22,247 nt of DNA from a virus. The notes beneath the pieces are model-generated. The model made no database searches. It saw nothing but the letters and a program-made list of their open reading frames with translations, and was not told where the DNA came from. The position numbers and the translations under genes were made by a program. The stretch spans positions 1 through 22,247 of IMG/VR virus record IMGVR_UViG_3300033153_003914; one strand, written 5' to 3'. This document shows positions 1 through 22,247 of this stretch, one piece after another (the first letter of the stretch is position 1; each line of letters begins with the position of its first letter).

Positions 1-114
1 AGCGTACACCATCCACAATAGCCCATGTGAGCCACATTATCATGTCAGTCCAGTTACTAGTCAGGTCTAGTATCTCCGCTATGGCTTCGGCTCTTGGGCC
101 TTCGCCTACGACAG
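1..114. repeat. Terminal direct repeat, left copy (circle closure)
   Basis: The first 114 bases are identical, in the same orientation, to bases 22134-22247. The repeat lies inside the portal gene, whose frame continues across the join. It is therefore best read as the overlap of a circular (or circularly permuted) molecule sequenced once around, not as two genomic copies. The implied unit length is 22,133 bp. Confidence 0.95.
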
Positions 115-409
115 ACCAGTTGAGCTTGGCTATACGAGTACCTAGCTTATTGATACTCTCTACTACAGGAGCGCAGTTGTGCATGAGGTTATATCCGTCT
201 GTATCTACGGAGTATATAGGATCATCCCATTGGGCTATACCCCCAGCTTCAAAGAGGCGCTGGATAGGAAGCTCATTAGCTAAGTCCTCTGTGTCACCCT
301 TACCTGTCTTGGCAGTAGTAGTAGGTGGAGAGTAGTCTTCTAGCTGCTTACGTCGCGTCTGCCAGCCTTTGTGGGCTGCGACAGAACGCTCTTGTTTATT
401 GTATGCCAT
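1..409 (-). CDS. Portal protein, DUF935/Mu gp29-like, N-terminal part (gene crosses the circle join)
   Basis: This is the first 136 codons of the portal gene, starting at ATG 409 (protein begins MAYNKQERSVAAHKGWQTRR) and running off the left edge. Through the 114-bp terminal overlap it joins in frame to the segment ending at 21229, giving a 437-aa protein. The portal forms the dodecameric ring at one head vertex, is the DNA channel, and docks the terminase. The start lies 21 bases after the terL stop. An AAGAGA stretch about 5 bases upstream is a weak ribosome binding site, and tight coupling to terL probably helps. The family call rests on the C-terminal part. This N-terminal part has a charged, flexible first 45 residues and then a portal-like region (DPIYSVDTDGYNLMHNCAPV). 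Confidence 0.88.
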   Translation of the reverse strand, partial: MAYNKQERSVAAHKGWQTRRKQLEDYSPPTTTAKTGKGDTEDLANELPIQRLFEAGGIAQWDDPIYSVDTDGYNLMHNCAPVVESINKLGTRIAKLNWSVVGEGPRAEAIAEILDLTSNWTDMIMWLTWAIVDGVR

Positions 410-430
410 TGTATTCTCTTATAGTGGGAC

Positions 431-1999: not shown

Positions 2000-2045
2000 A
2001 GTGTGTCCTGTTGGGTTACAAGACGTGTATCGACAACAATGCACC

Positions 2046-2069
2046 ATGCATTTCTTATGCATGATGCAT
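2046..2069. promoter_or_regulatory. Cluster of three ATGCAT palindromes upstream of terS
   Basis: ATGCAT occurs at 2046-2051, 2057-2062 and 2064-2069, three copies in 24 bases, in the spacer between the HNH gene and terS. Spacings are 11 and 7 bases. A pac or cos site is often in or next to terS, so a TerS-binding or packaging-start role is a reasonable inference. A regulator-binding role is equally possible. No function is shown by the sequence itself. Confidence 0.4.
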
Positions 2070-2075
2070 CAGCAT

Positions 2076-2094: not shown

Positions 2095-2887
2095 GGTTGT
2101 TTGTATCATTCTGTTCTGCGTCGTGCTTAGTACTGCGTCTGTGGTAGTTCAGGGGCAGACTTATAGCTTCCTCAAAGGACAGACCCCTACGATGGATACG
2201 CGACCACAGCGTATCCTTATTGAAGCCTAGTTCCCTCTCCCAAGCACTGATGGATAGAGTCTTACCATCGTGAGTGAAGTAGCGGGCAGTTAGGGAGTCA
2301 GGGTTTACTAATGCTTCACCCCTTATACCTGTCTGGTAGCGCCTATGTACAACACCAGACTTGAGACCGTGGTTCTCTGCGTGTTCTGATAGGCAGGCAG
2401 TAACACCGTTGATAGTTGTTATTACATTTACACGGGTGTTACGCATGTTCTGTGTAGCTGTAGCCCATCGTACATTGTCAGGGTAGTAGCTGTCTGAGTT
2501 GTCTATGCGGTCTAGTTGTGCTTTGGGGAAGGGGCGCTGACCCATATCGTCTACGAATCTATCGAAGTCATGCCACTCATCACACACTACAATGCCACGA
2601 CCCTTATAGTAACTGCTTGAGGAGTGATCGTCGCGGTAGCAACGGTTCATCATGTTCATCCACGTCACGTATGTAGGGTTGCTGGTTACGCGAACACGGT
2701 AGGCAGGCTGTGGTTTGTCAGTAACTTTAGACCACGACGTATAGTTCTTGATGTTGTATATAACGTTCAGAGAAACATCGTAGTAGCTTGCTATGGTCTT
2801 TACGTCGATACCATTCTCAATATAACCACGGATAGTTATTACATCCATCTCTCGTAGATGCTTCCTAGGCTTGTTCTTCCGACTCAT
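2087..2887 (-). CDS. Free-standing HNH homing-type endonuclease with N-terminal helix-turn-helix
   Basis: This is a 266-aa DNA-cutting selfish element. Residues 11-48 form a helix-turn-helix (DVITIRGYIENGIDVKTIAS). Residues 71-145 carry the phage HNH signature: TWMNMMNRC (75-83), YYKGRGIVVCDEWHDF (93-108) and LDRIDNSDSYYPDNVRWAT (125-143). Two related DNA-binding modules follow: about 154-196 (INGVTACLSEHAENHGLKS...) and about 205-246 (HDGKTLSISAWERELGF...), both ending in a pattern like GxxxEEAxxxP. The frame stays open to a GTG at 3115, but I start at ATG 2887. The extra 76 residues are Ser/Thr-rich, lack family similarity and are the shadow of the 74-aa gene on another frame. The resulting 23-base overlap with that gene is typical of phage operons. 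It sits next to terS, a common place for such elements. Confidence 0.85.
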   Translation of the reverse strand: MSRKNKPRKHLREMDVITIRGYIENGIDVKTIASYYDVSLNVIYNIKNYTSWSKVTDKPQPAYRVRVTSNPTYVTWMNMMNRCYRDDHSSSSYYKGRGIVVCDEWHDFDRFVDDMGQRPFPKAQLDRIDNSDSYYPDNVRWATATQNMRNTRVNVITTINGVTACLSEHAENHGLKSGVVHRRYQTGIRGEALVNPDSLTARYFTHDGKTLSISAWERELGFNKDTLWSRIHRRGLSFEEAISLPLNYHRRSTKHDAEQNDTNNLE

Positions 2888-3089
2888 CTTCGGCTTCGGT
2901 GTCGGGTTCGTCACCAGTTGCGATGCCTCCGATGTAGTCATAGATGAGTTCTTCTGTGTTGAGTTCCCAGACGTGTTCTGTTCCGTGTCCAGCCCATGTG
3001 ATAATGGTTGGGGGTTCACTACCGACCTCGATGACTTGGTATGATCCATCGCAGGGTCCGCCTCTGATGTCAATTCTGTATCCTGACAT
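2865..3089 (-). CDS. Small protein of unknown function, 74 aa
   Basis: The protein begins MSGYRIDIRGGPCDGSYQVI, is compact and beta-rich by eye, and ends in an acidic tail (DEPDTEAEDESEEQA). Start ATG 3089 follows the stop of the 90-aa gene by 22 bases and has an AAAGAAG stretch as a weak ribosome binding site. The composition is far more protein-like than the overlapping frame of the endonuclease extension, which is why I treat this frame as the real gene between 2888 and 3089. The RGGPCDG segment resembles openings of small uncharacterised phage proteins. I know of no function. It belongs to the cluster of small genes between the promoter and the terminase genes. Confidence 0.65.
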   Translation of the reverse strand: MSGYRIDIRGGPCDGSYQVIEVGSEPPTIITWAGHGTEHVWELNTEELIYDYIGGIATGDEPDTEAEDESEEQA

Positions 3090-3111
3090 ACTTCTTTATC
3101 GGGTTTATCTA

Positions 3112-3384
3112 TCACTGTGCTACTCCTATAGTTAGTATGATCTGTCGTTCTGATGGTGGTAGGTTTAGTTGGTCTTTGACGAGGGCGATGATCTCATCCA
3201 GTTCGCCTGCTGTCAGACCTTTATGTTTGTATATCACGGGGTTGTACTCAACACCTTGATTATCAGCACACTCTAGGATCATAATGTAAGCCCCTAGAGG
3301 TATGTAGTGATAACGAAAGTCAGATAGATGTTTAGCTAGTAGGGTGTCTATTGTCTTAGTTCCTACTCTTCGGTCTGGTCTCAA
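3112..3384 (-). CDS. Hypothetical protein, 90 aa
   Basis: It starts with TTG at 3384, sharing four bases (TTGA) with the stop of the 110-aa gene upstream. A GAGG motif lies five bases before it. The overlap and binding site make the TTG start credible; the first in-frame ATG would remove a third of the protein. It is mixed alpha/beta in appearance, with a hydrophobic middle (YHYIPLGAYIMILECADNQG) and a helical end (GELDEIIALVKDQLNLPPSE). I see no membrane segment, signal or catalytic motif and do not recognise the family. Confidence 0.6.
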   Translation of the reverse strand: MRPDRRVGTKTIDTLLAKHLSDFRYHYIPLGAYIMILECADNQGVEYNPVIYKHKGLTAGELDEIIALVKDQLNLPPSERQIILTIGVAQ

Positions 3385-3713
3385 CTCTGCCTCGCATCTT
3401 CAGCGTCTAGTCGCTCCCACTCCTTCTGGAACTCAGATTTATCTACGCCTGCCACTTGTATAAAATCAGTACGGAAGTCATTGATTGCAGCCTTTATGTC
3501 TGCTGGTGTCGTGCTGTCTATTGCCAACTGTAGTACGCCTAACTCTCGTGGTGTTAGTTGTTTACATGCACGGCGATACTTAGATTGCCGTTCAACACCG
3601 GAGCTACCCCATGTGCTATTATCAAGCATTATCGCGCAGGCAGCCTTATACGCAGCGTCTAGTAGATGGTCGCGTGATTCTGCTTGCACTGCTCTGTGTG
3701 TGTCCCAGTCCAT
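3381..3713 (-). CDS. Hypothetical helical protein, 110 aa
   Basis: The start ATG 3713 overlaps the stop of the 49-aa gene as TAATG, so the two are coupled. The protein is mostly helical and charged (MDWDTHRAVQAESRDHLLDA; KSEFQKEWERLDAEDARQS), with no transmembrane segment or recognisable DNA-binding motif. It is the second gene behind the promoter at 3.9 kb. Position alone suggests an early or regulatory role, but small head-gene-adjacent proteins of unknown function are equally common. I do not recognise it. Confidence 0.65.
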   Translation of the reverse strand: MDWDTHRAVQAESRDHLLDAAYKAACAIMLDNSTWGSSGVERQSKYRRACKQLTPRELGVLQLAIDSTTPADIKAAINDFRTDFIQVAGVDKSEFQKEWERLDAEDARQS

Positions 3714-3862
3714 TACGCTATCTCCGTCTGGGCTAGGTAGTCTATGAAGGAGGTGACTGTCTCGCTACCTTCTGACCCGTCTGGGTACTGGAGGCTGGTG
3801 TTGCAGCGTGCGTCGAGCCAGCAGACTGTTTGGTCTTCGTGGGTCGGGTACAGTTCTTTCAT
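3713..3862 (-). CDS. Small ORF, 49 aa, first gene behind the promoter
   Basis: The protein begins MKELYPTHEDQTVCWLDARC and ends FIDYLAQTEIA. Its stop overlaps the next start as TAATG, the same junction style as confirmed genes here, which is the main evidence that it is real. The start ATG 3862 has only a weak purine stretch (AAAGAAC) upstream. Three consecutive in-frame ATG codons at 3884-3892 offer an alternative start about ten residues longer, beginning with the basic stretch MNVKRKNEMKEL. There are two cysteines and no membrane segment. The function is unknown. Confidence 0.55.
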   Translation of the reverse strand: MKELYPTHEDQTVCWLDARCNTSLQYPDGSEGSETVTSFIDYLAQTEIA

Positions 3863-3898
3863 TTCGTTCTTTCGTTTTACGTTCATCATCATACTATC

Positions 3899-3926
3899 AT
3901 TATAACAGTAATCGGCATCAAAGCAA
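3899..3926 (-). promoter_or_regulatory. Sigma70-like promoter driving the leftward operon
   Basis: On the minus strand the -35 box TTGCTT (3921-3926) is followed by a 16-base spacer and a perfect TATAAT -10 box (3899-3904) with an extended TGn element just upstream. It points into the 49-aa gene, whose start is 37 bases downstream of the -10 box. It is the best promoter match I found and lies at the head of the only gene-free gap, so it could serve the whole head operon. Confidence 0.65.
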
Positions 3927-4041
3927 CGATTATACTGAATAAAAATGCAATTATTTACTTAGGGAATCCCCTTGCATTCTACACGAGTCTGTGTTATCCT
4001 TGGACACTTTATAAGACATATATAGTAAGTAAGAGTTACTG

Positions 4042-4098
4042 ACTCTGCTCTGGGTCAGAGGCTGCCCCAAGGCAAAGCCGAGAAGACCCAGCAAGAGT
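4042..4098. repeat. Complex stem-loop with nested hairpin
   Basis: The core arms CTGGGTC (4050-4056) and GACCCAG (4085-4091) pair perfectly. Outer arms ACTCT (4042-4046) and AGAGT (4094-4098) extend the stem with small bulges. Inside, GGC-TGCC (4060-4066), loop CCAA, and GGCA-AA-GCC (4071-4079) form a second stem. The structure could be a structured RNA 3' end, a DNA cruciform at an origin, or part of a terminator. It lacks a T-run. Confidence 0.55.
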
Positions 4099-4137
4099 AG
4101 ATGACTATAGAGTTAGTAATAGTGTTGTTGTCACTAT

Positions 4138-4161
4138 GATCGCTTGCCTAGAGGCGCGATC
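4138..4161 (-). terminator. Hairpin just after the last tail gene, possible terminator
   Basis: GATCGC (4138-4143) and GCGATC (4156-4161) form the outer stem, with GCC-TAGA-GGC inside it. It begins eight bases beyond the stop of the 64-aa gene in the direction of transcription. The position fits the end of the late operon. The stretch after it (ATAGTGACAAC) has no T-run, so rho-independent termination is doubtful and an RNA-protecting 3' hairpin is an alternative. Confidence 0.4.
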
Positions 4162-4168
4162 AAGACAA

Positions 4169-4363
4169 CTAGACTTCATACACTTTGGACAGTGTTTCTT
4201 GATAAGCACAGGTCTTAATCATGTAATCGAGTCCTGTGAGTGCTTGGCGCTTCTTGATATAAGACTCGGCGGCATCTAAAGAAGACAGGGAGTCCGCCTT
4301 TACCCAGCGTGCTCCCTGCATCCTGTACCATACTTCAAACCAGTTGTCCTTCTTTGGTTGCAT
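4169..4363 (-). CDS. Hypothetical protein, 64 aa, last gene of the tail operon
   Basis: It starts at ATG 4363, one base after the stop of the repeat fibre gene (TAACATG), so it is translationally coupled to it. The sequence is MQPKKDNWFEVWYRMQGARW and onward, aromatic and basic at the start, then helical (SSLDAAESYIKKRQALTG). The pattern resembles small single-domain proteins that modify host or fibre assembly, but I do not recognise a family. There is no signal peptide or membrane segment, so it is not an obvious holin. Confidence 0.6.
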   Translation of the reverse strand: MQPKKDNWFEVWYRMQGARWVKADSLSSLDAAESYIKKRQALTGLDYMIKTCAYQETLSKVYEV

Positions 4364-4364: not shown

Positions 4365-5768
4365 TTAGGTAGACTGCTTGATTAGTCTGATTGTGTAGCC
4401 GTTCAGGGTAAGGGTTTGTGTGGCTGTAGCCCCATCACTCTTGACATCTAGGCTGATTGTCTTAGTGCCTGTAACATCTGTAGCTGTTGTGACCCAAGAC
4501 GTAGCAACACCAGAGCCTAAGGTGGCTCCTGCTGCTCCGCGTCCTTGCTCGATGTTACCTGATACATTAGCGGAACCAGAAGAAAGTACAGTACATGTGA
4601 TTTTGGTGTGGTATAAGGCCCTGTCGGTAGCACTTGTAGATACTGAGAATAAGCCACCAATCACGAAGGCTATACCGCCTATGTTGTATGTCTGTGTGTA
4701 CTTTCTGGTGGCACCGGAGTTATTCAGTACAGTGAAGAATGTCTCAATCTGTATGATATCACCTGCGGCAATACCAGTAAGGCTCTTACTTAGTATCTCA
4801 ACATCCGTGAGTGTGTTGACAGCAGTATCGGCATTCTCAGAGTCAGCAAAGGCTACAGAACCACCGACAGGTGTGCTATATGCTCCCGTACCATCAAGGA
4901 ACTCAGTAACGACGTTCGATAGTTTAGGTAGTAGTCCGTGTGCAGTGATACTTGCGTTCAGGGTTGTTACGTCTGTGGGTGTGCCGAATTCATCAAGTAG
5001 AATCTCATCACTACCACCAGACTTGTGTGAAGCCTCGTGCGCGAGAGGAGTCTGACCATCAGCCAGAAGGCCTGATAGATTCAGTACTGATATTTCATCC
5101 CCACCACCATTCTCGTGAGCAGATGCGTGCAACTCAAGCGGCTTAGTAGCCAGTTTGAGAGGGGTAATCATTGTAGTGTCGTTCGTACCTGCGTCAGTCT
5201 CAACCTGTGTTGCAAGCTCTGCACCTCCCTTGAGTATCTCTGTAGCCTGTACTGGGAGCTGGTCGTCTGCTAGTTGTCCCGAGAGACCTGCAACGCTAAT
5301 CTCATCACCCCCACCATTCTGGTGTGAGGCTGCGTGAGCTGATGGCGCACCGGAAGGTGGTACTGAGTAAGCACCTGTACCATCAAGGTATTCAGTAACC
5401 ACGTTTGATAGCTTAGGTGTTAGTCCGTGTGCGGTTGTAGATACGTTGAGTGTGGTTACATCTGTAGGTGCGCCCAACTCGTCTAGGAGTATCTCATCAG
5501 AGCCACCGGACTTGTGTGAAGTCTCATGTGCAAGTGGAGTCTGTGCGTCAGCAAGTAAACCACTGAGATTCAATACAGATATCTCGTCGCCGCCCCCATT
5601 CTCATGGGATGCTGCGTGGGTACTAACAGCGCCGAGTACAGAAACACTGCCGGTTGAGTCTTTCACAGACCAGAAGCCATTTGCAGAATCGACAAACAGA
5701 GTCGTTGTTCCTGCTGGTGGTGTTGGTATGGTACTAGATGCTACTGCATCGTATTCTGAATATGCCAT
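4365..5768 (-). CDS. Tail fibre protein with duplicated HxxSHxxGGxDEI repeats
   Basis: This is a 467-aa fibre. After a 50-residue head domain comes a block (51-136) that recurs at 214-299 with very few changes. The motif H-x-x-S/A-H-x-x-G-G-x-D-E-I occurs five times (residues 51, 81, 145, 214, 244), each followed by a segment like LSGLLADAQTP. The phrase LSNVVTEYLDGTGAY occurs at 120-134 and nearly so at 283-297. Such H/GG/DxI and DGTGAY phrases are common in phage fibre shafts. The C-terminal about 165 residues (from about 303) are non-repetitive, beta-rich and probably the host-binding tip. It starts at ATG 5768, with GGGAG upstream, two bases after the collagen-like gene. The fibre likely binds the cell surface at the tail end. 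Confidence 0.8.
   Translation of the reverse strand: MAYSEYDAVASSTIPTPPAGTTTLFVDSANGFWSVKDSTGSVSVLGAVSTHAASHENGGGDEISVLNLSGLLADAQTPLAHETSHKSGGSDEILLDELGAPTDVTTLNVSTTAHGLTPKLSNVVTEYLDGTGAYSVPPSGAPSAHAASHQNGGGDEISVAGLSGQLADDQLPVQATEILKGGAELATQVETDAGTNDTTMITPLKLATKPLELHASAHENGGGDEISVLNLSGLLADGQTPLAHEASHKSGGSDEILLDEFGTPTDVTTLNASITAHGLLPKLSNVVTEFLDGTGAYSTPVGGSVAFADSENADTAVNTLTDVEILSKSLTGIAAGDIIQIETFFTVLNNSGATRKYTQTYNIGGIAFVIGGLFSVSTSATDRALYHTKITCTVLSSGSANVSGNIEQGRGAAGATLGSGVATSWVTTATDVTGTKTISLDVKSDGATATQTLTLNGYTIRLIKQST
4872..5129 (-). repeat. Tail-fibre repeat unit, second copy (residues 214-299)
   Basis: This 258-bp segment encodes 86 residues nearly identical to those encoded at 5361-5618. The two copies lie 231 bases apart in the same frame. 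The nucleotide sequences differ at many third positions, so the duplication is not recent or has been smoothed by selection on the protein. Confidence 0.8.
5361..5618 (-). repeat. Tail-fibre repeat unit, first copy (residues 51-136)
   Basis: This is the partner of the unit at 4872-5129. It carries two of the five HxxSHxxGGxDEI motifs and one DGTGAY motif. Between the two copies is a partial unit with a single motif (residue 145), suggesting growth by unequal exchange. Confidence 0.8.
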
Positions 5769-5770: not shown

Positions 5771-6772
5771 TTATGGTCTCCCAAGCAGAACTGCGCCTGC
5801 TATAAGTCTAATAGAACCGCCAGCTTTTATCATAAACCTTCTAGGCATTGGATAAAACTCCAGTTCTTCAAGTCGTAAGATGTCGCCGGACTCTAAAGTG
5901 TGTACAAGTGTTGTTCCAGATGCTACTGGTGCTACGGCCTCACCACCACCGCCGCCACCAGTTCTACCACGAGGGCCACGTTCACCCTTCTCGCCTTCTT
6001 CACCCTGCTCACCCATAAGAGCCATCAAGTCCCAGAAGGTGTCTTCGGTAGGTAGCTTACCAGTAGAGGGGACGGTAGCTATGTATGAGCTGCCCTCAAA
6101 GGCAACTACATCGTTTACCACGTAAGCAGTAGCCAGTGACCACTCACTACGCCATGTAAAGGAAGTACCTGACTCACCGTCTGTACCATTTACAGCAGCC
6201 TTACCAGTAAGGCCCTTGGGACCACGCGGCCCTACAAGGCCCGTGGGTCCAACCTCACCCTGATCGCCCTTCAGTCCTATCTCACCTACGTTACCAGTGA
6301 GACCCTGCATTCCCATCTCGCCTATATCACCTTTGATACCTTGCTGTCCTACTAGACCTTGCTTACCAGTATCACCTATAATTCCGGCCTTACCAGTAAT
6401 ACCCTGTAGGCCAGTGTCTCCGGTGTCACCCTTGGTGTGAGTGATAGGTTTGATGAGTGAGCGTCTGGAGTCTACTACATGGAACCCTACACTCTCGTTG
6501 TACTTCAGTGAGGTGCCGGGATCAAGTTTGTAAATCGCCTCGAAAGAGACCTTACCCTTCCTACTGTATATGCGAACACGTACCTTGTGGGGTACGTTGT
6601 CGTAGTTTCTGCCTTCCATCAATGTAATAGTCTTGGCTTTGGCGGGCTTGATAACAAGCGCCTTAGCCTTCTTTACTACTGAGGTAGCATTATTGATCTT
6701 GAATTTGATGCCTGCTTTTACAGCATCTTCTAGGACGGAGACCTCTAGTCTCTCGTGTGGGAGTATCTTCAT
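5771..6772 (-). CDS. Collagen-like tail fibre with embedded chitin-binding-like domain
   Basis: This is a 333-aa protein. Residues 1-112 form a basic, beta-rich domain. Residues 115-192 are 26 unbroken Gly-X-Y triplets (GDTGDTGLQGITGKAG...), with three more after a five-residue break. Residues 206-249 look like a CBM5/12 carbohydrate-binding fold (W207, W211, AYVVNDVVAFEGSSYIA, and W247 in FWDLM). A second collagen stretch spans 254-272, followed by a glycine run. A C-terminal beta domain ends in LIAGAVLLGRP. Collagen-like triple helices are a known phage fibre shaft; the embedded domain would bind surface glycans. It starts at ATG 6772, with AAAGAGA just upstream. It lies between the 57-aa gene and the repeat fibre, so it is one of several fibres of the same virion. 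Confidence 0.85.
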   Translation of the reverse strand: MKILPHERLEVSVLEDAVKAGIKFKINNATSVVKKAKALVIKPAKAKTITLMEGRNYDNVPHKVRVRIYSRKGKVSFEAIYKLDPGTSLKYNESVGFHVVDSRRSLIKPITHTKGDTGDTGLQGITGKAGIIGDTGKQGLVGQQGIKGDIGEMGMQGLTGNVGEIGLKGDQGEVGPTGLVGPRGPKGLTGKAAVNGTDGESGTSFTWRSEWSLATAYVVNDVVAFEGSSYIATVPSTGKLPTEDTFWDLMALMGEQGEEGEKGERGPRGRTGGGGGGEAVAPVASGTTLVHTLESGDILRLEELEFYPMPRRFMIKAGGSIRLIAGAVLLGRP

Positions 6773-6825: not shown

Positions 6826-6999
6826 TTAGGCATCTGGGTCTATAAAGTCTTCCATAGCTTCATAGATAGAGTCATCAGCCTTTACGCCCTCTTTCCATAT
6901 CACCTCTATGTCCTCATATACATAAGGACGCGAGGCTTGAAGGGAGCATATCTCATAGCCTAGTGTTGTAAGGTAATCGTGTAAGTTATATAGTCTCAT
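6826..6999 (-). CDS. Small acidic protein, 57 aa
   Basis: The protein begins MRLYNLHDYLTTLGYEICSL and ends in an acidic tail (DSIYEAMEDFIDPDA). The ATG lies one base after the stop of the 660-aa fibre gene (TAATATG), a coupling typical of this genome. There is no clear ribosome binding site of its own. There is one cysteine and no membrane segment. The location among fibre genes suggests a fibre-assembly chaperone, but this is position-only inference. A hydrophobic frame on the opposite strand covers the same bases and is a shadow. Confidence 0.6.
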   Translation of the reverse strand: MRLYNLHDYLTTLGYEICSLQASRPYVYEDIEVIWKEGVKADDSIYEAMEDFIDPDA

Positions 7000-7000: not shown

Positions 7001-8983
7001 TTAACACCAAAAAGTACCGTATATAGTAGCGTGTTGTACGGTTATAGGAGAGGTCGTAACACTCTGGTATGTCACGTTACCGTTTAGGGTGGCCTCATTC
7101 ATATAGAACGTGTGTGATCCTACCTCAGTACTAGAGTTCTCACCTGTACCATAGTGCATGTGAGTGTGTATCTGACCATCACCCATAGTGTGTCCATCTG
7201 ACTCACCATAATAGGTAGTCGTGCTATCCAAGCCAAAACCTATGCTACTTGAAGCATTAGTTGAACCTTCTACAGTACATGTACCTGTTATATCAATAAT
7301 GTTTATACCCGCCCTACCTATCGTCGCTTCACATTGAAAGCCTGAACCAGCCCAAGCCCGTATGACAGAGCTGTTGTATGTGTGGTCTGCTAGGTTACTA
7401 GTAACGTGTATACGGCGAGGTACACAGTTGTAGAAGTTACACACATGCCTACTGGCACGTCCATCTCCTATCACTGCATTACCACCGCTATCCTGTGTTC
7501 TAACTGTACCTATGTAACGGCGTGTCCTATCACCATTTTTAATCAAACCAAGAAGTACATCACTCACGAGAGCATACCCACGAGAGGTGAGACTAGACCA
7601 TGCTTGTGTATCTAGTTCAACGGAATCTAATTCTGAGTCCCAGTAGGCATATACATCATATACGGTATCCACTAATAGAGTACTGGTTTGTAGTTGGGTT
7701 CTAACTTGCCCTGTGACATTATCAGCGTACAAGTGACAGACACGTAGGGTATCAATTCCGGTTGTGTCTGTGCAGAGTAATATATTGTTAGATGAATAAG
7801 GGGTGTAGTACAAAGTAGTAGCAAGAGCCGGTGCTTCAAACAGTACATTCGTTTGAGTACCATTCATAGTCAGACGGCCACCAACAACACCCGTAGAGGC
7901 CATAGATTGTAGAGTAGCCTTGGTCTTGCCGGTCCCACCGTCACAATCCTCAAGGATTATGTAAGCATCCTCTGTAGCAAGCGGTACTGGGTCTGGGTAG
8001 CCATCAACTGATGTCTCAGAGCAGATGTCAAACTTAGCAGACACCCATTCAGTACCATCATACCACTTGAGTTCGTTAGAGTCGCCGGAGTCAATCATCA
8101 TCATACCAGCTTGCGGGTTGGTATTCAGAGGGTTGGGCGAGATCATAAAGTGGCCGTCGATCTTCAGGCCAAGCTCAGTATCAGGTAGTCCACCTTCGTA
8201 GCCTGTGTAGCAGAGCCAGTGTTCGGTCGCGTTACCAGACACTAAGTCCATACTGAACATACCGCCCTGATTAGGAACAGTATCACCCTCAGAGGGAGAA
8301 CCGAAGGCTAGGTTAGCTACCGCGTCATCACCAGTACTACCGTCATCACGCTGGGAGTTATATAACAACACCGACACGTCTGAGATAGAAGTAGGCCACT
8401 TGGCATCACCGTTCTTGTCGTTACCTCTGAGCATGTAGTCCTGTAGCTCAGGTGAGTGGAACGATAGGAAGCCACGGCCTGTACCCTCATGGATAGCATC
8501 CATGATGGAGTCCTTCTCCCCTGTGCGTACTTGGAAGTAAGGCTGCTGTGTATATAGAGGCTTGTCCGCGTTGAATAGGTACAGTGGAGTCAACCCACCA
8601 ACGATAGGCTGAGTATCCTCTTTAATCTGGTCATCCATCTGGGTCGTGATCATGGAGTAACCAGTACCACACTCCTCTGGGGGTCCTGTAGTTGGCTTCA
8701 CAGGTTCCTTTATCGCAGGTGTCTTTGAGATACCTGGAGCCGGAGCTATAGAGGGGCCACCTGCACCTGGACCCGGTGTGCCTTTAGGTACAGGGACAGC
8801 AGTCTTACAGTGTGCAGGTACTGTTATGTAACCCGGATATTGTTTAACAAAGTTCTCTACGCCGTGCTGTGTTGTGATACCAGATGCAGGTAAGCCCGGA
8901 TACCATTGTGAGGACCCATTGATTGAACCAGATGATAGGAATACAAGGCAGTTCGTAGGATTGAAAGTTAAATATGCGCCCAT
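7001..8983 (-). CDS. Large tail-tip/fibre protein, 660 aa, probable host-binding
   Basis: The protein has a 60-residue N-terminal domain with two cysteines (C12, C59). A Pro/Gly-rich linker follows at about 64-103 (VPKGTPGPGAGGPSIAPAPG). A long beta-rich body comes next (VSGNATEHWLCYTGYEG, ELKWYDGTEWVSAKF). A C-terminal region near residues 604-610 contains QIHTHMH, similar to the HxH metal-binding motifs in T4-type fibre tips, and the chain ends in YGTFWC. The linker-plus-beta layout fits a fibre or tip protein. A strong GGAGGA site precedes the ATG, which overlaps the upstream stop (TAATG). I do not recognise a named family. Confidence 0.7.
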   Translation of the reverse strand: MGAYLTFNPTNCLVFLSSGSINGSSQWYPGLPASGITTQHGVENFVKQYPGYITVPAHCKTAVPVPKGTPGPGAGGPSIAPAPGISKTPAIKEPVKPTTGPPEECGTGYSMITTQMDDQIKEDTQPIVGGLTPLYLFNADKPLYTQQPYFQVRTGEKDSIMDAIHEGTGRGFLSFHSPELQDYMLRGNDKNGDAKWPTSISDVSVLLYNSQRDDGSTGDDAVANLAFGSPSEGDTVPNQGGMFSMDLVSGNATEHWLCYTGYEGGLPDTELGLKIDGHFMISPNPLNTNPQAGMMMIDSGDSNELKWYDGTEWVSAKFDICSETSVDGYPDPVPLATEDAYIILEDCDGGTGKTKATLQSMASTGVVGGRLTMNGTQTNVLFEAPALATTLYYTPYSSNNILLCTDTTGIDTLRVCHLYADNVTGQVRTQLQTSTLLVDTVYDVYAYWDSELDSVELDTQAWSSLTSRGYALVSDVLLGLIKNGDRTRRYIGTVRTQDSGGNAVIGDGRASRHVCNFYNCVPRRIHVTSNLADHTYNSSVIRAWAGSGFQCEATIGRAGINIIDITGTCTVEGSTNASSSIGFGLDSTTTYYGESDGHTMGDGQIHTHMHYGTGENSSTEVGSHTFYMNEATLNGNVTYQSVTTSPITVQHATIYGTFWC

Positions 8984-15131: not shown

Positions 15132-15563
15132 TTAGGACCTCTCGAACTGTGCTGTGAAGCGGTACGTCTTGACGAGTACCATGATGCTCTCATCTACACC
15201 TATCGCCTCAAGGTCATCATCGCCTGCATTGAATATCTCTATAGTAGTATCGTACTCAAGGGCAGTCATTAGTAGTTCGCCGAGATCAAGTATGTTGTGT
15301 GTAGTCTCTTCACCAATATGGTCTCTAGGGTGACTGGTTAGTATGGCTACTGAGAACTGTCGAGTCCATATCTTACCGTTGTGAGGGTCTAACGAACCAC
15401 CATTGTCAAAGATAACAGCAGCAGGCCAACGAGGTATACTCAGTAGGCGCTCTACATCTAGGAAGGGGGCGACCCATACACGAAGGAACGCAACACTGCC
15501 GCCATTCATCACGGCTTCTGTGCGTGTCTTTACGTCTGATAGGAATGTGCTTACTTGTCCCAT
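15132..15563 (-). CDS. Tail terminator-like protein, 143 aa
   Basis: This 143-aa alpha/beta protein contains RWPAAVIFDNGG (about 44-55) and a long strand plus helix (QFSVAILTSHPRDHIGEETT, then ILDLGELLMTALE). The tail VKTYRFTAQFE matches the general layout of gpU/gp37-type tail terminators, which cap the tube and join it to the head. AAGGA lies before ATG 15563. The spacing to the tube gene is ten bases. In many phages the terminator gene precedes the tube gene; here it follows, so a chaperone role is a weaker alternative. Confidence 0.55.
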   Translation of the reverse strand: MGQVSTFLSDVKTRTEAVMNGGSVAFLRVWVAPFLDVERLLSIPRWPAAVIFDNGGSLDPHNGKIWTRQFSVAILTSHPRDHIGEETTHNILDLGELLMTALEYDTTIEIFNAGDDDLEAIGVDESIMVLVKTYRFTAQFERS

Positions 15564-15573: not shown

Positions 15574-16125
15574 TTATGCTATAACTGGTAAGCTCGCTGC
15601 CTCACCATAGAGGAAGGGAGCGTTGTAACTAGTATCCCATAAGCCTGTTATGGACATAGCTGCACCAGCTAAGTGTGGCATACGTCTGTCCCATGTGAGG
15701 TTGGTCAGGGGTGTTACAACACCACGGGGTATGTAGAGTGTAGGCTTACTAGTATCTACTGTTCCGTCATCATTGATGGGCCGGATCAGTAGTTTGTGTG
15801 TTTGGCTAGAGCCGAGTAAGTCACCTACGTTGTATCCCGTAAACCCATGTACCGTATCACTATCATTAACCTTATTGAACAGTAAGTCTGTCAAGTCAGC
15901 GGACATCTCTGTCATGTGTATCAAGTAGCTTACATTCATCCCTAAGAAGCGTGTGTCTACCAGTGCGGTGCCTGTAGCGTGCTCTGTAATACTCTCTGTA
16001 TCCATCGAGGTTGAGACTATGTGTGAACTAGATACCAAGCCTAGGTCAGTACCACCCGTACTATAGTTAGTAGGGGTTAGTATTAGTCTTCCCTGTGCGG
16101 GATACTGTCCTGTGTCTAATGCCAT
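15574..16125 (-). CDS. Major tail tube protein, 183 aa
   Basis: This is a beta-rich 183-aa protein (QYPAQGRLILTPTNYSTGGT; THKLLIRPINDDGTV; WDRRMPHLAGAAMSITGLWD) of the size and character of siphovirus tube subunits, which stack in rings around the tape measure. It overlaps the gpG-like gene as TAATG, with GAGGA upstream. No sheath gene accompanies it, so the tail is non-contractile. The assignment is by order, size and composition; I see no family-specific motif. Confidence 0.6.
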   Translation of the reverse strand: MALDTGQYPAQGRLILTPTNYSTGGTDLGLVSSSHIVSTSMDTESITEHATGTALVDTRFLGMNVSYLIHMTEMSADLTDLLFNKVNDSDTVHGFTGYNVGDLLGSSQTHKLLIRPINDDGTVDTSKPTLYIPRGVVTPLTNLTWDRRMPHLAGAAMSITGLWDTSYNAPFLYGEAASLPVIA

Positions 16126-16493
16126 TATCTAATCCTCATCTGTTGTTCTACGGCCTTCTTCAGCTCAACACTCAGTTCAGCTATGTCTCGCTTAGTTATC
16201 ACTACTACTTCTCTCTTAGGTATACTCTTAGTACCGTTCTGATGGTAGATAGCGTAAGTGCTATTACTACCTAATACTACTGATACACCACTGGCCTTGA
16301 AGAACATACTATTCATTAGAGCGCCGGTCTTAACTAATGGTAGTCTAGTACCTGTGCTAGGACTCAACGGAACCCACCTCTTACCCCCATGCGCTTGATG
16401 ACCACCCACAGCGAAGGCACGCTTCAGCCTAGACTTCTGCTTAGCGCCCCACCGTGATAGTATCTGAGGAATGATGTCAAAGGGATTAGCCAT
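16125..16493 (-). CDS. Virion morphogenesis / tail completion protein, Mu gpG-like
   Basis: This is a 122-aa basic protein. The middle reads GGKRWVPLSPSTGTRLPLVKTG (about 37-58), followed by TGALMNSMFF and STYAIYHQNGTKSIPKREVV (about 78-97). That is the layout of the Mu gpG/phage virion morphogenesis family: a W-x-P-L start, an L-x-x-TG-x-L-x-x-S turn, then Y-A-x-x-H-Q-x-G-T and a P-x-R-x-x-x motif. These proteins finish the head-tail joint. A strong AAGGGAG site precedes ATG 16493. Confidence 0.8.
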   Translation of the reverse strand: MANPFDIIPQILSRWGAKQKSRLKRAFAVGGHQAHGGKRWVPLSPSTGTRLPLVKTGALMNSMFFKASGVSVVLGSNSTYAIYHQNGTKSIPKREVVVITKRDIAELSVELKKAVEQQMRIR

Positions 16494-16504: not shown

Positions 16505-16951
16505 TTATGTGTCAGTCGAGCTATCCCATGTTGAGTCAGGGTAGCGTAAGTTAAGTTTATCGTTGTCAGGACCGTCTATTACAGGGGTGCTGGCTTCCTG
16601 CCTCAGACCCTTAGCATACGATTCCATCTCCGCCATTAAGAACTCCATACTAGCAACACCCTTATCCGTCAGAGTGAAGGTGTATATCTGCGAGTAGTAG
16701 AGCAGAGCCATACGGATACCGAAGTCCAAGAAGGTTTGATCCCCTATGGTTCCATCAGCATCGTCATAACTACCAGCATCCCCAAGTACAGACTCAACCT
16801 TAGAGGCGGCCATCTGGCATACACGTAAGGTCTTGTCTGTATCCTGAGTGACGGTAGCGTCACGTTGACGGCTAAGGTCTATTAGTGTTGAGTCTGCTAT
16901 CAGCAATGCTAAGTCATCTTGGATGCGTTCAGCGAATGTTGCAGTTGCCAT
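16505..16951 (-). CDS. Head-tail connector, DUF1320 / Mu gp36-like
   Basis: This 148-aa mostly helical protein has the typical adaptor layout. A short N-terminal helix is followed by TDKTLRVCQMAASKVESVLG, then a helix with DFGIRMALLYYSQIYTF, and a C-terminal helix (MAEMESYAKGLRQEA). The Mu gp36/DUF1320 and gp6-type adaptors share this pattern, bind beneath the portal and recruit completion proteins. An AAGGG site precedes ATG 16951. It stands between the 71-aa Cys-rich gene and the gpG-like gene, as in Mu-type head modules. Confidence 0.65.
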   Translation of the reverse strand: MATATFAERIQDDLALLIADSTLIDLSRQRDATVTQDTDKTLRVCQMAASKVESVLGDAGSYDDADGTIGDQTFLDFGIRMALLYYSQIYTFTLTDKGVASMEFLMAEMESYAKGLRQEASTPVIDGPDNDKLNLRYPDSTWDSSTDT

Positions 16952-16954: not shown

Positions 16955-17170
16955 TTACCCTTCTGCTGTTACTACTTCCTGTTCGGAGCAGCCACAGTCT
17001 TCACACTCTTCAAAGTGCTCTTTCATTACTTCGGACAGTGTTGTTAGCGCCGCTTTGACCTGAACATGTAGTTCAATGTGGTCTAGTCCGACGGGGAACT
17101 TACCTGATAGTGACAGGTTGATAGCCTCTACTGTTATCTGAAAGGCTTTGTTTGCTTCTTCTTTATTCAT
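16955..17170 (-). CDS. Small protein with cysteine cluster, 71 aa
   Basis: The first 50 residues form one or two helices (NKEEANKAFQITVEAINLSL). Near the end is HFEECEDCGCSEQE, with H52, C56, C59 and C61, enough ligands for a metal site. GGAG before ATG 17170 is a good ribosome binding site, and the upstream stop is two bases away. I do not recognise the family. A metal-bound small connector or regulator is possible but not shown. Confidence 0.65.
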   Translation of the reverse strand: MNKEEANKAFQITVEAINLSLSGKFPVGLDHIELHVQVKAALTTLSEVMKEHFEECEDCGCSEQEVVTAEG

Positions 17171-17172: not shown

Positions 17173-18531
17173 TTAGCTCCAGTCTTCCCAGTTCGCCGTA
17201 GCTGCTACGTCACTGCGGAAGTATCGTCCTAAGCCCATGTTAGCAAAGTACTTCTGTGTAGTACCACCTTCGGCACTTGTAGTCTGAACAGTGAACGTGT
17301 CACCCTTCTTGAAGTCACCGTTAGCGTTACCACTAGCGTCTTGAGTCGTACCGTCGAACAAGGCTGCGGTGTATCCGTTGATGAGTGTAGCGTTAGCCAA
17401 CATCACATCATCGAAGGTTATGGTTCCTACTGCCAGCGATGCCAACTCTACTTGTACCTTCAGCTCTTTAGCAGAGACAGGTATATCGAAGGGGGCGGCG
17501 ATAGCCAAGACCACTGGTACATCGTTAGTCAGAGAGCCTATGGTTATTGAGAGGGTGCCATGTGTAACGCCCTCGTCCCTATCCATCAGCTTAACTGTTA
17601 AAGTACCTGTAGCACTAGACTTACGTTCAACCTTGATAGCCAAGGCTGCCATTGTGCCAGCCTGAATACGACCAGCAGTGAGTAGACTATCCATTACGAA
17701 GTCAGCACTAGCATCGAGAGAGTATGCTCCGTTGATGGGGTCTGTTGACTCCTCAGTTATGGTTGCGTCGCCTGTGGAGATAGTCCATTGACTCAGCTTA
17801 TCTGTTCCTGTGCCGGAGATAGGTGTCTCAAAGTCTCCGTTACGTATCAAGTTACCCGCACCACTGGAAGCTCCAATAGAGCGTATAGTATCGCCTGAGC
17901 CAGCCTTAGGCTGCTGCGAGGCGAAGTCTGTTATTACTGTACCGAAGTCATAGTTGTATGAGGATGAGAGGCCGGAACCGTTCTCTTCCCACGGGTACTT
18001 ACCAGTGCTTGAGCCTTTGATCGTGAACTCTGGTGAGCTTACGCCGTCTACTCTATCGCACTCGAACACGAAGTCTTCTACATGTCCGTAGTCTATGATG
18101 TCGCCACTCAAGTCAACACTACCAACTGATAGTAGTCCTGCGCCAGAACCAACAACTGTTGCTGCTGTATCCTTGGTGTAGCCGCGCTTCTCTATCTCGT
18201 TGCTGTTGTCCACCATGTACTGAGCGAACGTATCTATGTTCTGTGTGAAGTCTGTTAGGTCTGGTGAGCCAGCGAGCCTACCTAGGGCAGGAGCTGACGC
18301 TTGTGCGATACTCTTCCACGTCTCAAAGGCATTACCTAGTTGACTAATAAACTGGTTCATAGCCGTAGTCATCTGTGAGTTCTCTGCTACTTGGTCGCCT
18401 ACTGCTATCTGGGTCTCCAGTGCGTTGAGGTCAGTAGCACCAGTACCAGTTAGGTATGTATGGAATTGGTTACCCAGCTTGGTGATAGCTCTCACAAGGT
18501 CTAGGGTTTCAGTTTCTGTTCGTACAGCCAT
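17173..18531 (-). CDS. Capsid-adjacent structural protein with carbohydrate-binding-like domain, 452 aa
   Basis: It is the gene immediately after the major capsid. Residues 1-120 are helical (LDLVRAITKLGNQFHTYL). About 140-215 are beta. Residues 227-380 look like a CBM4/9-type jelly roll: NLIRNGDFE at 227-235, a tryptophan at 249 (SQWTISTG), and the closing strand GTITFDDVMLANA at 369-381. The end (KYFANMGLGRYFRSD) is another small domain. This suggests a head fibre or capsid decoration that binds glycans. It is preceded by a hairpin that overlaps its upstream region, and AAGGA precedes ATG 18531. A tail-side location is less likely given the gene order. Confidence 0.65.
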   Translation of the reverse strand: MAVRTETETLDLVRAITKLGNQFHTYLTGTGATDLNALETQIAVGDQVAENSQMTTAMNQFISQLGNAFETWKSIAQASAPALGRLAGSPDLTDFTQNIDTFAQYMVDNSNEIEKRGYTKDTAATVVGSGAGLLSVGSVDLSGDIIDYGHVEDFVFECDRVDGVSSPEFTIKGSSTGKYPWEENGSGLSSSYNYDFGTVITDFASQQPKAGSGDTIRSIGASSGAGNLIRNGDFETPISGTGTDKLSQWTISTGDATITEESTDPINGAYSLDASADFVMDSLLTAGRIQAGTMAALAIKVERKSSATGTLTVKLMDRDEGVTHGTLSITIGSLTNDVPVVLAIAAPFDIPVSAKELKVQVELASLAVGTITFDDVMLANATLINGYTAALFDGTTQDASGNANGDFKKGDTFTVQTTSAEGGTTQKYFANMGLGRYFRSDVAATANWEDWS

Positions 18532-18615: not shown

Positions 18616-19545
18616 TTACGCGTCGTTACCGATGATGCTAGCTGCGTTGTTACCGAAGGCAACCTCGTAGGCCCAGCTTGATACGAAGGTCTGAGCGCGG
18701 GAGATAACATAGCTATCTGAACCGGAATCAGTCATATCGAGCACAGGGCGCTGTTGCCAGCCAACCATCAGAGACTTCTCAGGTGAATCCAGATCGAAGA
18801 ACCAGATGTCATCAATGCTTCCGCTAAAGTAGCCGTTTGGCATTGCGACAACAGTACCTTCAGGAATCTTCTGAGCGCCTTCCAGCGTATCAGGATCAAG
18901 AGCGTCCATCACCGACTGGTGGATCAACACGCCGTTGGTAGCACGGGGATCATACATGATACCCATACGAGGCCAACCACCGTTAATCAACTGGTTACCT
19001 GCACCACGCATGGCGAGGAAGCCAGCACGGGCTGCATGTACAGCCGCACGTACTTCTGTTGCGCTGCCTGAGACAGCAGTACCCACGAGGTTATCGAGAG
19101 ACTGTCCACCCGGCATTGCGCTAGTAGCACTGTAGAACGCACCACTAGTCAGGTTACCTGCGGATTCACCAGTGAGGAGCAAGGCCGTCAGTCTCTTATC
19201 GAGGTGAGACACACTCTTCATTGCGATTCCACGGAGCATACGGGAGACAGCACCACGGCTGATCTCGTCCGTCTTCTCCAACAGGTTGCGGTTCATCTGT
19301 GCGCCGTATGTGAATACGAGCGTTTCATACAGTTGAGCTGCACTGTCTGGGGTGTTCATTGTGACTGTACCGCTAAACTCTTCTGCTTCGCCCGGAAGGG
19401 TGATAGCAGTGGGCTTGAAGAAGCCCTCAGCAGCAGGTACATCCATGAATGTACCATCAAAGACGCTTGAGCTAAGTTCTGCGTTGTAGATTTCGTAGAA
19501 CTCGACAAGCGATTCGCGCAGTCTGGTTTCTAATACTGAAGCCAT
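18616..19545 (-). CDS. Major capsid protein, Mu gpT-like
   Basis: This 309-aa HK97-fold shell subunit is close in length to Mu gpT (about 305). The N-terminus (ETRLRESLVEFYEIYNAELS) is the helix that contacts neighbouring subunits. The P-domain and core include GAQMNRNLLEKTDEISRGAV and AVHAARAGFLAMRGAGNQL. A turn near IDDIWFFDLDSPEKSLMVGW leads to a C-terminal strand. There is no large delta domain, consistent with the separate scaffold made from the protease gene. AAGGA precedes ATG 19545. The codons favour CTG/CTT and avoid CTA, unlike the tail genes. Confidence 0.87.
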   Translation of the reverse strand: MASVLETRLRESLVEFYEIYNAELSSSVFDGTFMDVPAAEGFFKPTAITLPGEAEEFSGTVTMNTPDSAAQLYETLVFTYGAQMNRNLLEKTDEISRGAVSRMLRGIAMKSVSHLDKRLTALLLTGESAGNLTSGAFYSATSAMPGGQSLDNLVGTAVSGSATEVRAAVHAARAGFLAMRGAGNQLINGGWPRMGIMYDPRATNGVLIHQSVMDALDPDTLEGAQKIPEGTVVAMPNGYFSGSIDDIWFFDLDSPEKSLMVGWQQRPVLDMTDSGSDSYVISRAQTFVSSWAYEVAFGNNAASIIGNDA

Positions 19546-19611: not shown

Positions 19612-20034
19612 TTAGTACGCAGCGCACTTGACCCAAATCTCAGTCGCACTGATGACTTCACTGATCTTACCAACCGCGATGTCATTAGTACCCGTACCAG
19701 CACTGGTTACTTCGTTATTCAGTTCTTGTACGACTGCATCACCTACATTAGCGATGGCGAGGCTACCGTCTTCGTGCACGCACTTGACGAATGCTCCACC
19801 AACATCAACGAGGATGCTGAGGTCACCAGCACTACCACCTGAGTTGTCAGATGCTTCCAGAGCTATGCCCAAGAAGAATGTACCAGTTGTGTCTGTTGAG
19901 TTAGCTACATATCCTGCCGCGTTAATCATTACCATTGCACCGTAAGGGATAGACTCAACCGCTTGTGCGAGACGAACGCTTGGTCCGCCAGATGGGCGGT
20001 AGCTATCAACGATGTTTACTGTACTTGCTGCCAT
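19612..20034 (-). CDS. Head decoration / cement protein, 140 aa
   Basis: This is a small beta-rich, Gly/Ala/Ser/Val-rich protein (SVRLAQAVESIPYGAMVMIN; TGTFFLGIALEASDNSGGSAG; VDVGGAFVKCVHEDGS), resembling DUF2190-type capsid decoration proteins. It sits between protease/scaffold and capsid, the usual place for such a protein. AGGA precedes ATG 20034. An imperfect hairpin precedes it in the 67-base gap. It likely stabilises the expanded shell. Confidence 0.65.
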   Translation of the reverse strand: MAASTVNIVDSYRPSGGPSVRLAQAVESIPYGAMVMINAAGYVANSTDTTGTFFLGIALEASDNSGGSAGDLSILVDVGGAFVKCVHEDGSLAIANVGDAVVQELNNEVTSAGTGTNDIAVGKISEVISATEIWVKCAAY

Positions 20035-20101: not shown

Positions 20102-20587
20102 TTAGATGCGGTTAATGACCTTACCAGTCAGGTCCGCTTTGTTCTTACCTTGACAAATCGTTGAGAAGGTGTCGAAGTCGATCTTGCTATCGTGCTTATC
20201 ACAATATGCTTTGTGTTCGATCTTCAGTTGATCTTCCAGCTTAGGAGCTTCATAAGTCTTTTCCATCTCAAGACTAATATCATCGTTAGCCTTTTCCATG
20301 AGACGGGTGTACTCAACGCCCATAGCCATAGTGTTATCGCCAAACTTAGCGAATGAGGCTTTGAGGTGCTTCTCGTTGGTGTAGCCCTTAGAGACGAGGT
20401 TACGTACATAGCCATCAACGGTGATGTCGATCTTCTGCTTTGCAACTTCAGCAAGAGCAGCCTTCAACTTCTCTTCGTTGATTGGATCGTCTTCTTCGTC
20501 GATCTCTTCTGGGTCTTCAATCTTAGCAGACATCGCTTCAGCAATCATGCCAGCGATCTGTTCGAGGTCTTCAGGTGATAGTGCCAT
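20102..20587 (-). CDS. Nested scaffold protein from an internal in-frame start, 161 aa
   Basis: Inside the protease gene, M181 (ATG 20587) is preceded by AAGGA at 20595-20599 with a seven-base gap, the same site used before other genes here. The nested product MALSPEDLEQIAGMIAEAMS and onward is an acidic helical protein, and the start falls exactly at the domain border. Mu (I/Z) and lambda (C/Nu3) use the same arrangement: the protease carries the scaffold as its C-terminus, and an internal start makes excess scaffold. Expression of this form is inferred, not shown. Confidence 0.72.
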   Translation of the reverse strand: MALSPEDLEQIAGMIAEAMSAKIEDPEEIDEEDDPINEEKLKAALAEVAKQKIDITVDGYVRNLVSKGYTNEKHLKASFAKFGDNTMAMGVEYTRLMEKANDDISLEMEKTYEAPKLEDQLKIEHKAYCDKHDSKIDFDTFSTICQGKNKADLTGKVINRI

Positions 20588-21127
20588 TTTGGATTCCTTG
20601 TGTGTGGTCCCCTTAATGGGACTATACTTATATTTCATCGAGAGCGTCTTGAATGAGAATTCCTCTTCAAGCTGCTCCTTAGTAACGTCTACAGTTAGAT
20701 CGGCCCAACCTTCTGAGTCCTGACCGAAATCACCAGACAAGAGTGAGATACCTTTGAGTTGTGCGTCTTCTTCGCTCCAACCCCATTCAATACTACGCTC
20801 TGTCAACTCACCCGCTTCAACCATACGGATGACATCTGGGTTTGTAATAAGTATATCGGCAACTAACTCCTTGCCTGATATATGCAGGTTTAGTATCCTA
20901 CCTACGCCCGGACCACCGTGGTTTAGCAGCACGAAGGCTCCTACCTTACCGGCTTCCACACGTCTGTTGTAGTGTACTAAGAACTGCTCGAACGTATCTA
21001 CTGTGAGGTCGCGGAGAAAGTCAGGACGTTGCTCCTGTGTAGTCTCTTTAGACAACTCCACATTCTTAATGAGCAGACCTTCTGCTGTCTTCTCTGCTTT
21101 ATAGTTGGCTGTAATCAATTCAGGCAT
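20102..21127 (-). CDS. Head maturation protease fused to scaffold, Mu gpI-like
   Basis: This is a 341-aa protein. The N-terminal half (about 1-170) looks like a phage prohead protease: GAFVLLNHGGPGVGRIL (64-79, candidate catalytic H70), ILITNPDVIRMVEAGELTER (92-111), then RSIEWGW (candidate S112). The C-terminal half (from about 181) is acidic and helical (IEDPEEIDEEDDPINEEKLK), as in scaffolds. The start ATG 21127 overlaps the preceding gene by eight bases. A second start at M181 likely makes free scaffold. The protease would digest the scaffold and itself during head maturation. Family and catalytic residues are by eye. Confidence 0.8.
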   Translation of the reverse strand: MPELITANYKAEKTAEGLLIKNVELSKETTQEQRPDFLRDLTVDTFEQFLVHYNRRVEAGKVGAFVLLNHGGPGVGRILNLHISGKELVADILITNPDVIRMVEAGELTERSIEWGWSEEDAQLKGISLLSGDFGQDSEGWADLTVDVTKEQLEEEFSFKTLSMKYKYSPIKGTTHKESKMALSPEDLEQIAGMIAEAMSAKIEDPEEIDEEDDPINEEKLKAALAEVAKQKIDITVDGYVRNLVSKGYTNEKHLKASFAKFGDNTMAMGVEYTRLMEKANDDISLEMEKTYEAPKLEDQLKIEHKAYCDKHDSKIDFDTFSTICQGKNKADLTGKVINRI

Positions 21128-21329
21128 TGTCTTCCTCTGTAGGCTCTTTATCGGCAGCCACTTCCACTGCCTGTTCAGCCTCTACAAATATAGCATTGGT
21201 TAGATCGTGTAGTGCGTCAGAGTGTTCCTTATACAGATGTATCAGTCCCTGAAGGCGCTGCACTTCCTCCTGTAGTATCTTGATCTGGTTCTCTAGGTAG
21301 CTCTGCACTTCGGGTGTCATCGTCATCAT
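21120..21329 (-). CDS. Coiled-coil protein overlapping the portal end, 69 aa
   Basis: The protein begins MMTMTPEVQSYLENQIKI and continues with heptad-like LQEEVQRLQGLIHLYKEH, ending in an acidic tail. GGAGA seven bases before ATG 21329 is a strong ribosome binding site. Its first 101 bases overlap the acidic C-terminal tail of the portal in a different frame. The stop overlaps the protease start by eight bases. No function is recognised. A scaffold accessory or a portal-linked chaperone is plausible from its position. In Mu the corresponding slot holds the minor head protein gpF, which is absent here. Confidence 0.6.
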   Translation of the reverse strand: MMTMTPEVQSYLENQIKILQEEVQRLQGLIHLYKEHSDALHDLTNAIFVEAEQAVEVAADKEPTEEDNA

Positions 21330-22247
21330 TTAGTTCTCCGTCTTCCACTTCAATACTTTGATCGTCTTCTTCTTCTTCGATTTCGCTAGGCTCAGGCCAA
21401 ATGTAGATTTCGTGCTCTCCCACTTCAAGAGCAGGGATGTCAGGGTTCTTAGCTAGTATCCAAGGTAACAGGTGACGGTTGAGACTCTCAGCTATAACCA
21501 TAGCACTAGAGAATACCACTTCTGACTCTTCCATCAAGTGTACGGCAGTATTACCTGTACGTTCTGCATCATTAACTGTCGAGGTAAGCTGGTTACCCAA
21601 GAACATCTGATCTATCAGACCCTCTAGGTACTTACTATACTCTATCATATCCTCGAAGCCTTTGCCCTTTGGCTCAATGAGTTCTAATACTTGCTCGTCT
21701 GTGAGCATTGCCATCTGGTTATTCTTCAACGACTGTAGCTTGGTGGCGGCGGAAGATAAAGCTGATTGTACTCTATCAGGGCGTACATCAGATATCTTGT
21801 TCTTGAAGACCCGGATAGGCAAAGAGAACAACTCCATATAGGAATCTGTGTGTTTCCGCGCATCTTCCCAGCTCTTAGCTATCTTGTATGTAGATAGGCC
21901 TACTTGTAGATCACCCTCTGGTGAACTACCAGCTCCGGGTCTATGTATGATGAACTGATCCATTGGTAGTTGTGCGGCCTGTACTACGGTAACGCCTGTG
22001 TTCTCTTCGACGCGCATAAGACGAGTACCGTCCCACTGCATGTCTCCACCAGCATTGAACTTACGTCGTCCACCCATGAAGAAGTCAGGGAGTGTCCACT
22101 TGGGATCAGACACGTCAGTCTTGATCTGCATGAAGCGTACACCATCCACAATAGCCCATGTGAGCCACATTATCATGTCAGTCCAGTTACTAGTCAGGTC
22201 TAGTATCTCCGCTATGGCTTCGGCTCTTGGGCCTTCGCCTACGACAG
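21229..22247 (-). CDS. Portal protein, DUF935/Mu gp29-like, C-terminal part
   Basis: This segment continues the gene that starts at 409; bases 22134-22247 repeat 1-114. Of the full 437-aa protein it supplies the conserved core. MDQFIIHRPGAGSSPEGD and WEDARKHTDSYMELFSLPIR match the DUF935 pattern of a conserved phrase, a glycine-rich stretch and a wing helix. YLEGLIDQMFLGNQLTSTVN is the family's characteristic helix followed by a Q-x-L-T-S turn. ESLNRHLLPWILAKNPD is the final conserved helix. The extreme C-terminus (EIEEEEDDQSIEVEDGELND) is acidic and overlaps the 69-aa gene. At 437 aa the protein is shorter than Mu gp29 (about 512). Confidence 0.9.
   Translation of the reverse strand, partial: VVGEGPRAEAIAEILDLTSNWTDMIMWLTWAIVDGVRFMQIKTDVSDPKWTLPDFFMGGRRKFNAGGDMQWDGTRLMRVEENTGVTVVQAAQLPMDQFIIHRPGAGSSPEGDLQVGLSTYKIAKSWEDARKHTDSYMELFSLPIRVFKNKISDVRPDRVQSALSSAATKLQSLKNNQMAMLTDEQVLELIEPKGKGFEDMIEYSKYLEGLIDQMFLGNQLTSTVNDAERTGNTAVHLMEESEVVFSSAMVIAESLNRHLLPWILAKNPDIPALEVGEHEIYIWPEPSEIEEEEDDQSIEVEDGELNDDDDTRSAELPREPDQDTTGGSAAPSGTDTSV
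22134..22247. repeat. Terminal direct repeat, right copy (circle closure)
   Basis: Identical to bases 1-114. See the left copy. Annotation of the genome as a circle should remove one of the two. Confidence 0.95.

Follow-up and report, generated by a model that had tools for sequence, protein, structure and literature searches.

Genome organization

The stretch of DNA analyzed here, referred to as the window, is the whole of IMGVR_UViG_3300033153_003914, a single metagenomic virus record of 22,247 bases. Its first 114 bases (1-114) are exactly identical to its last 114 (22134-22247), and the record, because of this direct overlap at its ends, closes into a circle of 22,133 bases. Closure falls inside the portal gene, the N-terminal part of which (1-409) continues on the circle at 22133-21229: the 437 codons of the joined gene run in frame across the junction, with no stop. 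The Portal_Mu profile (PF06074, E=4e-23) aligns to residues 82-370 of the joined protein, on both sides of the junction; the C-terminal part (21229-22247) is recognized by the same profile on its own with E=6e-17. Since both an intact portal gene and its profile match span the junction, we regard the closure as real, and the circularity proposed in a previous sequence-only reading of this DNA is confirmed by the overlap and by the uninterrupted portal frame.

The 114-base overlap itself is probably an assembler overlap or setting, because the same length is found in an unrelated circle, G020 (IMGVR_UViG_3300033153_007465, 42,185 bases), the terminal overlap of which is also exactly 114 bases. 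A biological terminal repeat was considered and rejected, on account of this coincidence and of the ends cutting through the portal gene.

The circle is densely packed: coding sequence takes up 97.8% of it, and every accepted gene is encoded by the minus strand. GC content and codon usage are even all around it, with no break. No tRNA or Rfam RNA was found in the window. The fact that the assembly closed without branching suggests that the circle may be the dominant form in its sample.

Virion and packaging genes

The window contains a Mu-type head module of a tailed phage, in which a Mu-family portal is accompanied by decoration, capsid and neck genes in a Mu-like order. Support from profiles extends to both terminase subunits, the HNH endonuclease, the portal, the decoration and neck proteins, and a collagen-like fibre. 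Next to the portal lie the terminase large subunit (389 aa, 431-1600; PF04466 E=4e-14, phrog_2 E=7e-25) and the small subunit, up to 153 aa long (1601-2062; phrog_1482 E=4e-5, with an HTH). On the other side of the portal are found a 69 aa, small coiled-coil-like protein (21120-21329), weakly characterized, and a 341 aa protein (20102-21127; phrog_976 E=0.05), probably the head protease or scaffold, as its position is the same as in phages RC1 and vB_ThpS-P1. The capsid decoration protein follows (140 aa, 19612-20034; phrog_1731 E=6e-17), and is 30-47% identical to proteins of many phages. The 309 aa protein encoded at 18616-19545 has no profile match in Pfam, PHROGs or NCBIfam, and is assigned as a major capsid protein of the Mu gpT type by similarity to ORFs of relatives: it shares about 21-26% identity with the ORF that comes directly behind the decoration gene in L106, L108, L134 and L172, in matches scored against small databases. 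A 452 aa virion protein (17173-18531), with a weak choice-of-anchor C match (E=0.002), is a possible head fibre. The module ends with a small protein of 71 aa (16955-17170), listed as such from family searches, a probable head-tail connector of 148 aa, named by position (16505-16951), and a neck or tail completion protein of 122 aa (16125-16493; Phage_tail_S E=2e-5, phrog_26 E=7e-13).

Tail genes, other than those supported by profiles, could be named by position only. A probable tail tube protein (183 aa, 15574-16125; tail family phrog_6614, E=0.003) and a probable tail terminator (143 aa, 15132-15563), the latter placed by position, precede a probable tape measure protein of 485 aa (13674-15131), which has no profile match and is proposed from its position and the character of its N-terminus. 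Position is also the basis for a probable distal tail protein of 530 aa (12078-13670) and, together with sequence character, for a probable tail hub or tip protein of 637 aa (10161-12074), with no significant match. Two more tail-region proteins follow, of 393 aa (8983-10164; weak phrog_6142, E=0.2) and 660 aa (7001-8983; no match in Pfam, PHROGs or NCBIfam). Neither the hub nor the 393 aa protein matched phage records, and the structure predicted for the latter was uninterpretable. The operon continues with a small protein of 57 aa (6826-6999), listed from family searches, the collagen-like tail fibre of 333 aa (5771-6772; Collagen E=2e-15, phrog_5073 E=3e-35) and a second tail fibre of 467 aa (4365-5768; phrog_972, phrog_910). 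The latter gene carries an internal duplication, 251 bases long and 76% identical (4879-5129 and 5368-5618).

The region between tail fibres and terminase

The only long non-coding region, 276 bases at 3893-4168, separates a 64 aa small protein (4169-4363; weak match to phrog_5790 only, E=0.009) from a group of short genes. It features two hairpins, followed by a putative promoter-like sequence, TTGCTT-16-TATAAT, read by eye and absent from the computed list, and folds better than shuffled sequence (z=-2.8). No match to it was found in Rfam, phage records or plasmid records, for which reason the idea of a known RNA or of a plasmid origin was rejected; no IMG/VR contig other than this one contains the 24-base core of the hairpin. 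No gene remnant, nor any truncated gene, is present at the gap. The boundary is thus coherent: the tail operon ends, the hairpins and the promoter-like sequence follow, and then come the small genes and the terminase.

The first gene past the gap, identified by ORF calling, encodes a protein of 59 aa, or 49 aa if started at 3862 (3713-3892). Next come proteins of 110 aa (3381-3713), 90 aa (3112-3384; no significant family match) and 74 aa (2865-3089; no family match). The 110 aa protein resembles, weakly, a family of unknown function (phrog_36369, E=0.003), has no match in Pfam, phage records or plasmids, and is predicted, with low confidence (AlphaFold pLDDT 55), to be all-helical. The last gene before the terminase encodes an HNH endonuclease of the homing type, of about 266 aa (2087-2887; phrog_3377 E=2e-56, phrog_374 E=5e-38). 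Its ORF may be extended up to 3115, but the 74 aa gene overlaps this extension in another frame (2865-3115), and the protein probably starts at 2887. It is the one nuclease gene of the window.

Missing functions

Searches of the window against Pfam, PHROGs and NCBIfam revealed no polymerase, primase, helicase or Rep protein, and no transposase, integrase, repressor or lysin. The earlier description of a circle provided with virion and packaging genes, but with no recognizable gene for replication, lysogeny or lysis, is therefore upheld by all three collections. Profile searches of the small proteins, in particular, returned no match to an initiator or a lysis protein.

Failure of the method is unlikely as the whole explanation, because the same Pfam search finds replication genes in a positive control, G007, a closed circle of 38.3-38.4 kb that shares the capsid and decoration pair of the window: PolA is detected there with E=1e-67, along with a SNF2 helicase and a VapE primase-helicase. 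The lack of lysin families, taken alone, is weak evidence, because three common ones were found in only 5 of the 22 long relatives. More telling is that membrane proteins are missing altogether. At a Kyte-Doolittle-19 threshold of 1.8, no membrane segment is found in any of the 26 ORFs of the window (maximum 1.57); four related phages, analyzed with the same ORF caller, feature 3-6 membrane-segment ORFs each. A 41 aa ORF with a membrane segment, lying in an alternate frame within the 530 aa gene (12794-12919, minus strand), was evaluated as a hidden lysis gene and rejected, as it does not rise above a synonymous-shuffle null, where 0.46 such ORFs are expected and 37.5% of shuffles reach one. 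Several proteins of the window have no detectable relative, and, being too divergent for detection, might include an unrecognized lysis or initiator protein.

Relatives and known systems

No close relatives were found in IMG/VR by capsid and terminase peptides, and searches with lineage-specific terminase motifs gave no hits or unrelated ones. Distant relatives, sharing the head module at 20-47% identity, are found among Mu-like siphophages of Rhodobacterales and in bacterial genomes, including those of Armatimonadetes and Phycisphaeraceae; the longer related contigs span 30-48 kb. The best relatives of the decoration gene in cellular genomes (L174, L175, L176, L177, L191 and L199) fall in Armatimonadetes and Phycisphaeraceae bins, which suggests that these groups may harbour little-studied Mu-type phages. 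A separate observation concerns a Salipiger thiooxidans contig (L209, NZ_FNAV01000047, 10,021 bases), which carries Mu-like head genes and a 245-base terminal repeat, and looks like a phage fragment or a rearranged remnant.

Among described phages, Rhodobacter phage RC1, Thiobacimonas phage vB_ThpS-P1 and Pelagibaca phage vB_PeaS-P1 share with the window a Mu-type portal and one gene order, running from small terminase through large terminase, portal, protease/scaffold and decoration to capsid. Their decoration proteins are 30-36% identical to that of the window, while for the other virion genes similarity is barely detectable or not detectable at all. These phages are 39 kb long and encode transposition functions, repressor-type proteins and lysis enzymes, all of which the window lacks. 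A transposable, Mu-like phage would be expected to show a DDE transposase with a Mu-transpos_C domain; this is not found in the window, and scores above the cut-off in 8 of the 22 long relatives.

Small siphoviruses dominated by virion genes, 14-17 kb in size, are known in Arthrobacter cluster AN, Microbacterium cluster EE and Rhodococcus RRH1; the window, at 22.1 kb, exceeds the roughly 14-18 kb expected of such minimal genomes. Cluster AN phages are plaque-forming tailed phages of 15.5 kb devoid of any DNA-metabolism gene (PMC5513430). No replication gene was recognized in the window either, and cluster EE shares with it an HNH nuclease. Both clusters, however, retain genes for lysis and for DNA binding or regulation, whereas no lysis gene is recognizable here. 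Moreover, AN, EE and RRH1 feature a fused protease-capsid gene, in contrast to the separate 341 aa and 309 aa genes of the window, with the decoration gene lying between them, and searches of phage records with the capsid, portal and decoration proteins gave no similarity to any of the three. Phage satellites such as P4, PICI and PLE lack a full virion set and hijack that of a helper, while the window has its own portal, terminase, capsid and tail genes.

No host link was found. The CGT-rich usage for arginine, together with AAGGA-like ribosome sites, makes us lean towards a bacterial, rather than archaeal, host.

Discussion

Two closed circles, G007 and G020, have the same Mu-type capsid and decoration pair as the window. 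G007 differs in possessing profile-confirmed replication genes; G020 (about 42.1-42.2 kb) is similar to G007, as judged by eye only. In G007 the stretch between tail fibres and small terminase contains candidate membrane and lipoprotein genes, followed by replication genes, while the equivalent stretch of the window consists of the 276-base gap, the genes of four small proteins and that of the HNH endonuclease. By this analogy, the window looks like a genome of the G007/G020 type minus one contiguous early and lysis arc.

The explanation we favour, although we rate it at somewhat less than an even chance, is that of a small, complete, circular siphovirus-like genome with a Mu-type head, copied by host enzymes and provided with an unrecognized lysis function. 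Transcription would start at the promoter-like sequence of the 3893-4168 gap, and the host replisome would copy the circle, with initiation falling to a small protein (that of 59, 110, 90 or 74 aa), to the HNH enzyme acting as a nickase, or to the structured gap. Concatemers would then be packaged by the terminase, and particles released through an unrecognized small or virion protein, or from a type of host needing no classical holin and endolysin. In favour of a host-copied phage are the intact in-frame portal, the even GC and codon usage, the lack of remnants at the gap and the coherent boundary, as well as a complete packaging and head set; the AN phages offer, by analogy, a precedent. Against it stand the lack of a lysis gene and of any membrane-spanning protein, unlike in AN and EE, and the fact that both closed circles with the same head are larger (about 38.3 and 42.1 kb), G007 with replication genes. 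Missing DNA-metabolism genes have a precedent; the odd part is the missing of any lysis or membrane gene. Dependence on a host or a helper, suggested by the sequence-only reading, is a natural way to view such a gene content, and the host side of it has cultured precedents.

The main competitor, to which we assign a rather low but appreciable probability, not far below that of the favoured explanation, is a deletion or helper-dependent circle, derived from a phage of the 38-42 kb type by loss of the arc of early and lysis genes, and replicated and released by the parent or by a co-infecting phage. The missing functions do correspond to a single arc, from tail fibres to small terminase, just where G007 keeps its polymerase, helicase, primase and candidate membrane/lipoprotein genes; the window has no membrane or lysis gene, and longer related contigs of 30-48 kb exist. 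The gap, however, contains no truncated gene and the promoter-like boundary is tidy, searches turned up no relative of the window in which the arc is kept, and a co-resident parent sharing 22 kb would be expected to branch the assembly at the edges of the deletion. Less probable still is an assembly product, a larger phage genome wrongly closed, with the missing genes on the same molecule. The record is indeed a single metagenomic contig, and its 114-base overlap is an assembler-type value, found also in G020, but closure occurs within one intact portal gene, so that any false join must be sought at another site, and neither GC nor codon usage shows a break.

We consider very unlikely the further proposal of the sequence-only reading, that a tailed-phage genome is divided here, with the circle as one segment and the replication and lysis genes on another. 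Virion and packaging genes are cleanly split from all other functions, and the intact non-coding region might represent a shared packaging or origin signal; nevertheless, the searches revealed no partner, no second IMG/VR contig contains the hairpin core and the gap is absent from phage and plasmid records, so that positive evidence for a divided genome is lacking. Moreover, according to a 2025 preprint (PMC12324425), dsDNA elements with a segmented or multipartite organization are not known.

In a wider sense, the circle could be a stable, naturally transmitted virion-and-packaging segment which never carries replication or lysis genes, either as half of a divided genome or as a reverse satellite, supplying its own particle and borrowing replication and release from another phage; we hold this to be improbable. 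Tailed phages without DNA-metabolism genes are already known. One that also lacked any recognizable lysis or membrane protein would extend the notion of how little a dsDNA phage must encode. Should the circle prove stable and dependent on a helper, it would be the reverse of the satellites known so far, and would speak directly to the question of whether a tailed phage can divide its genome, of which no case is known.
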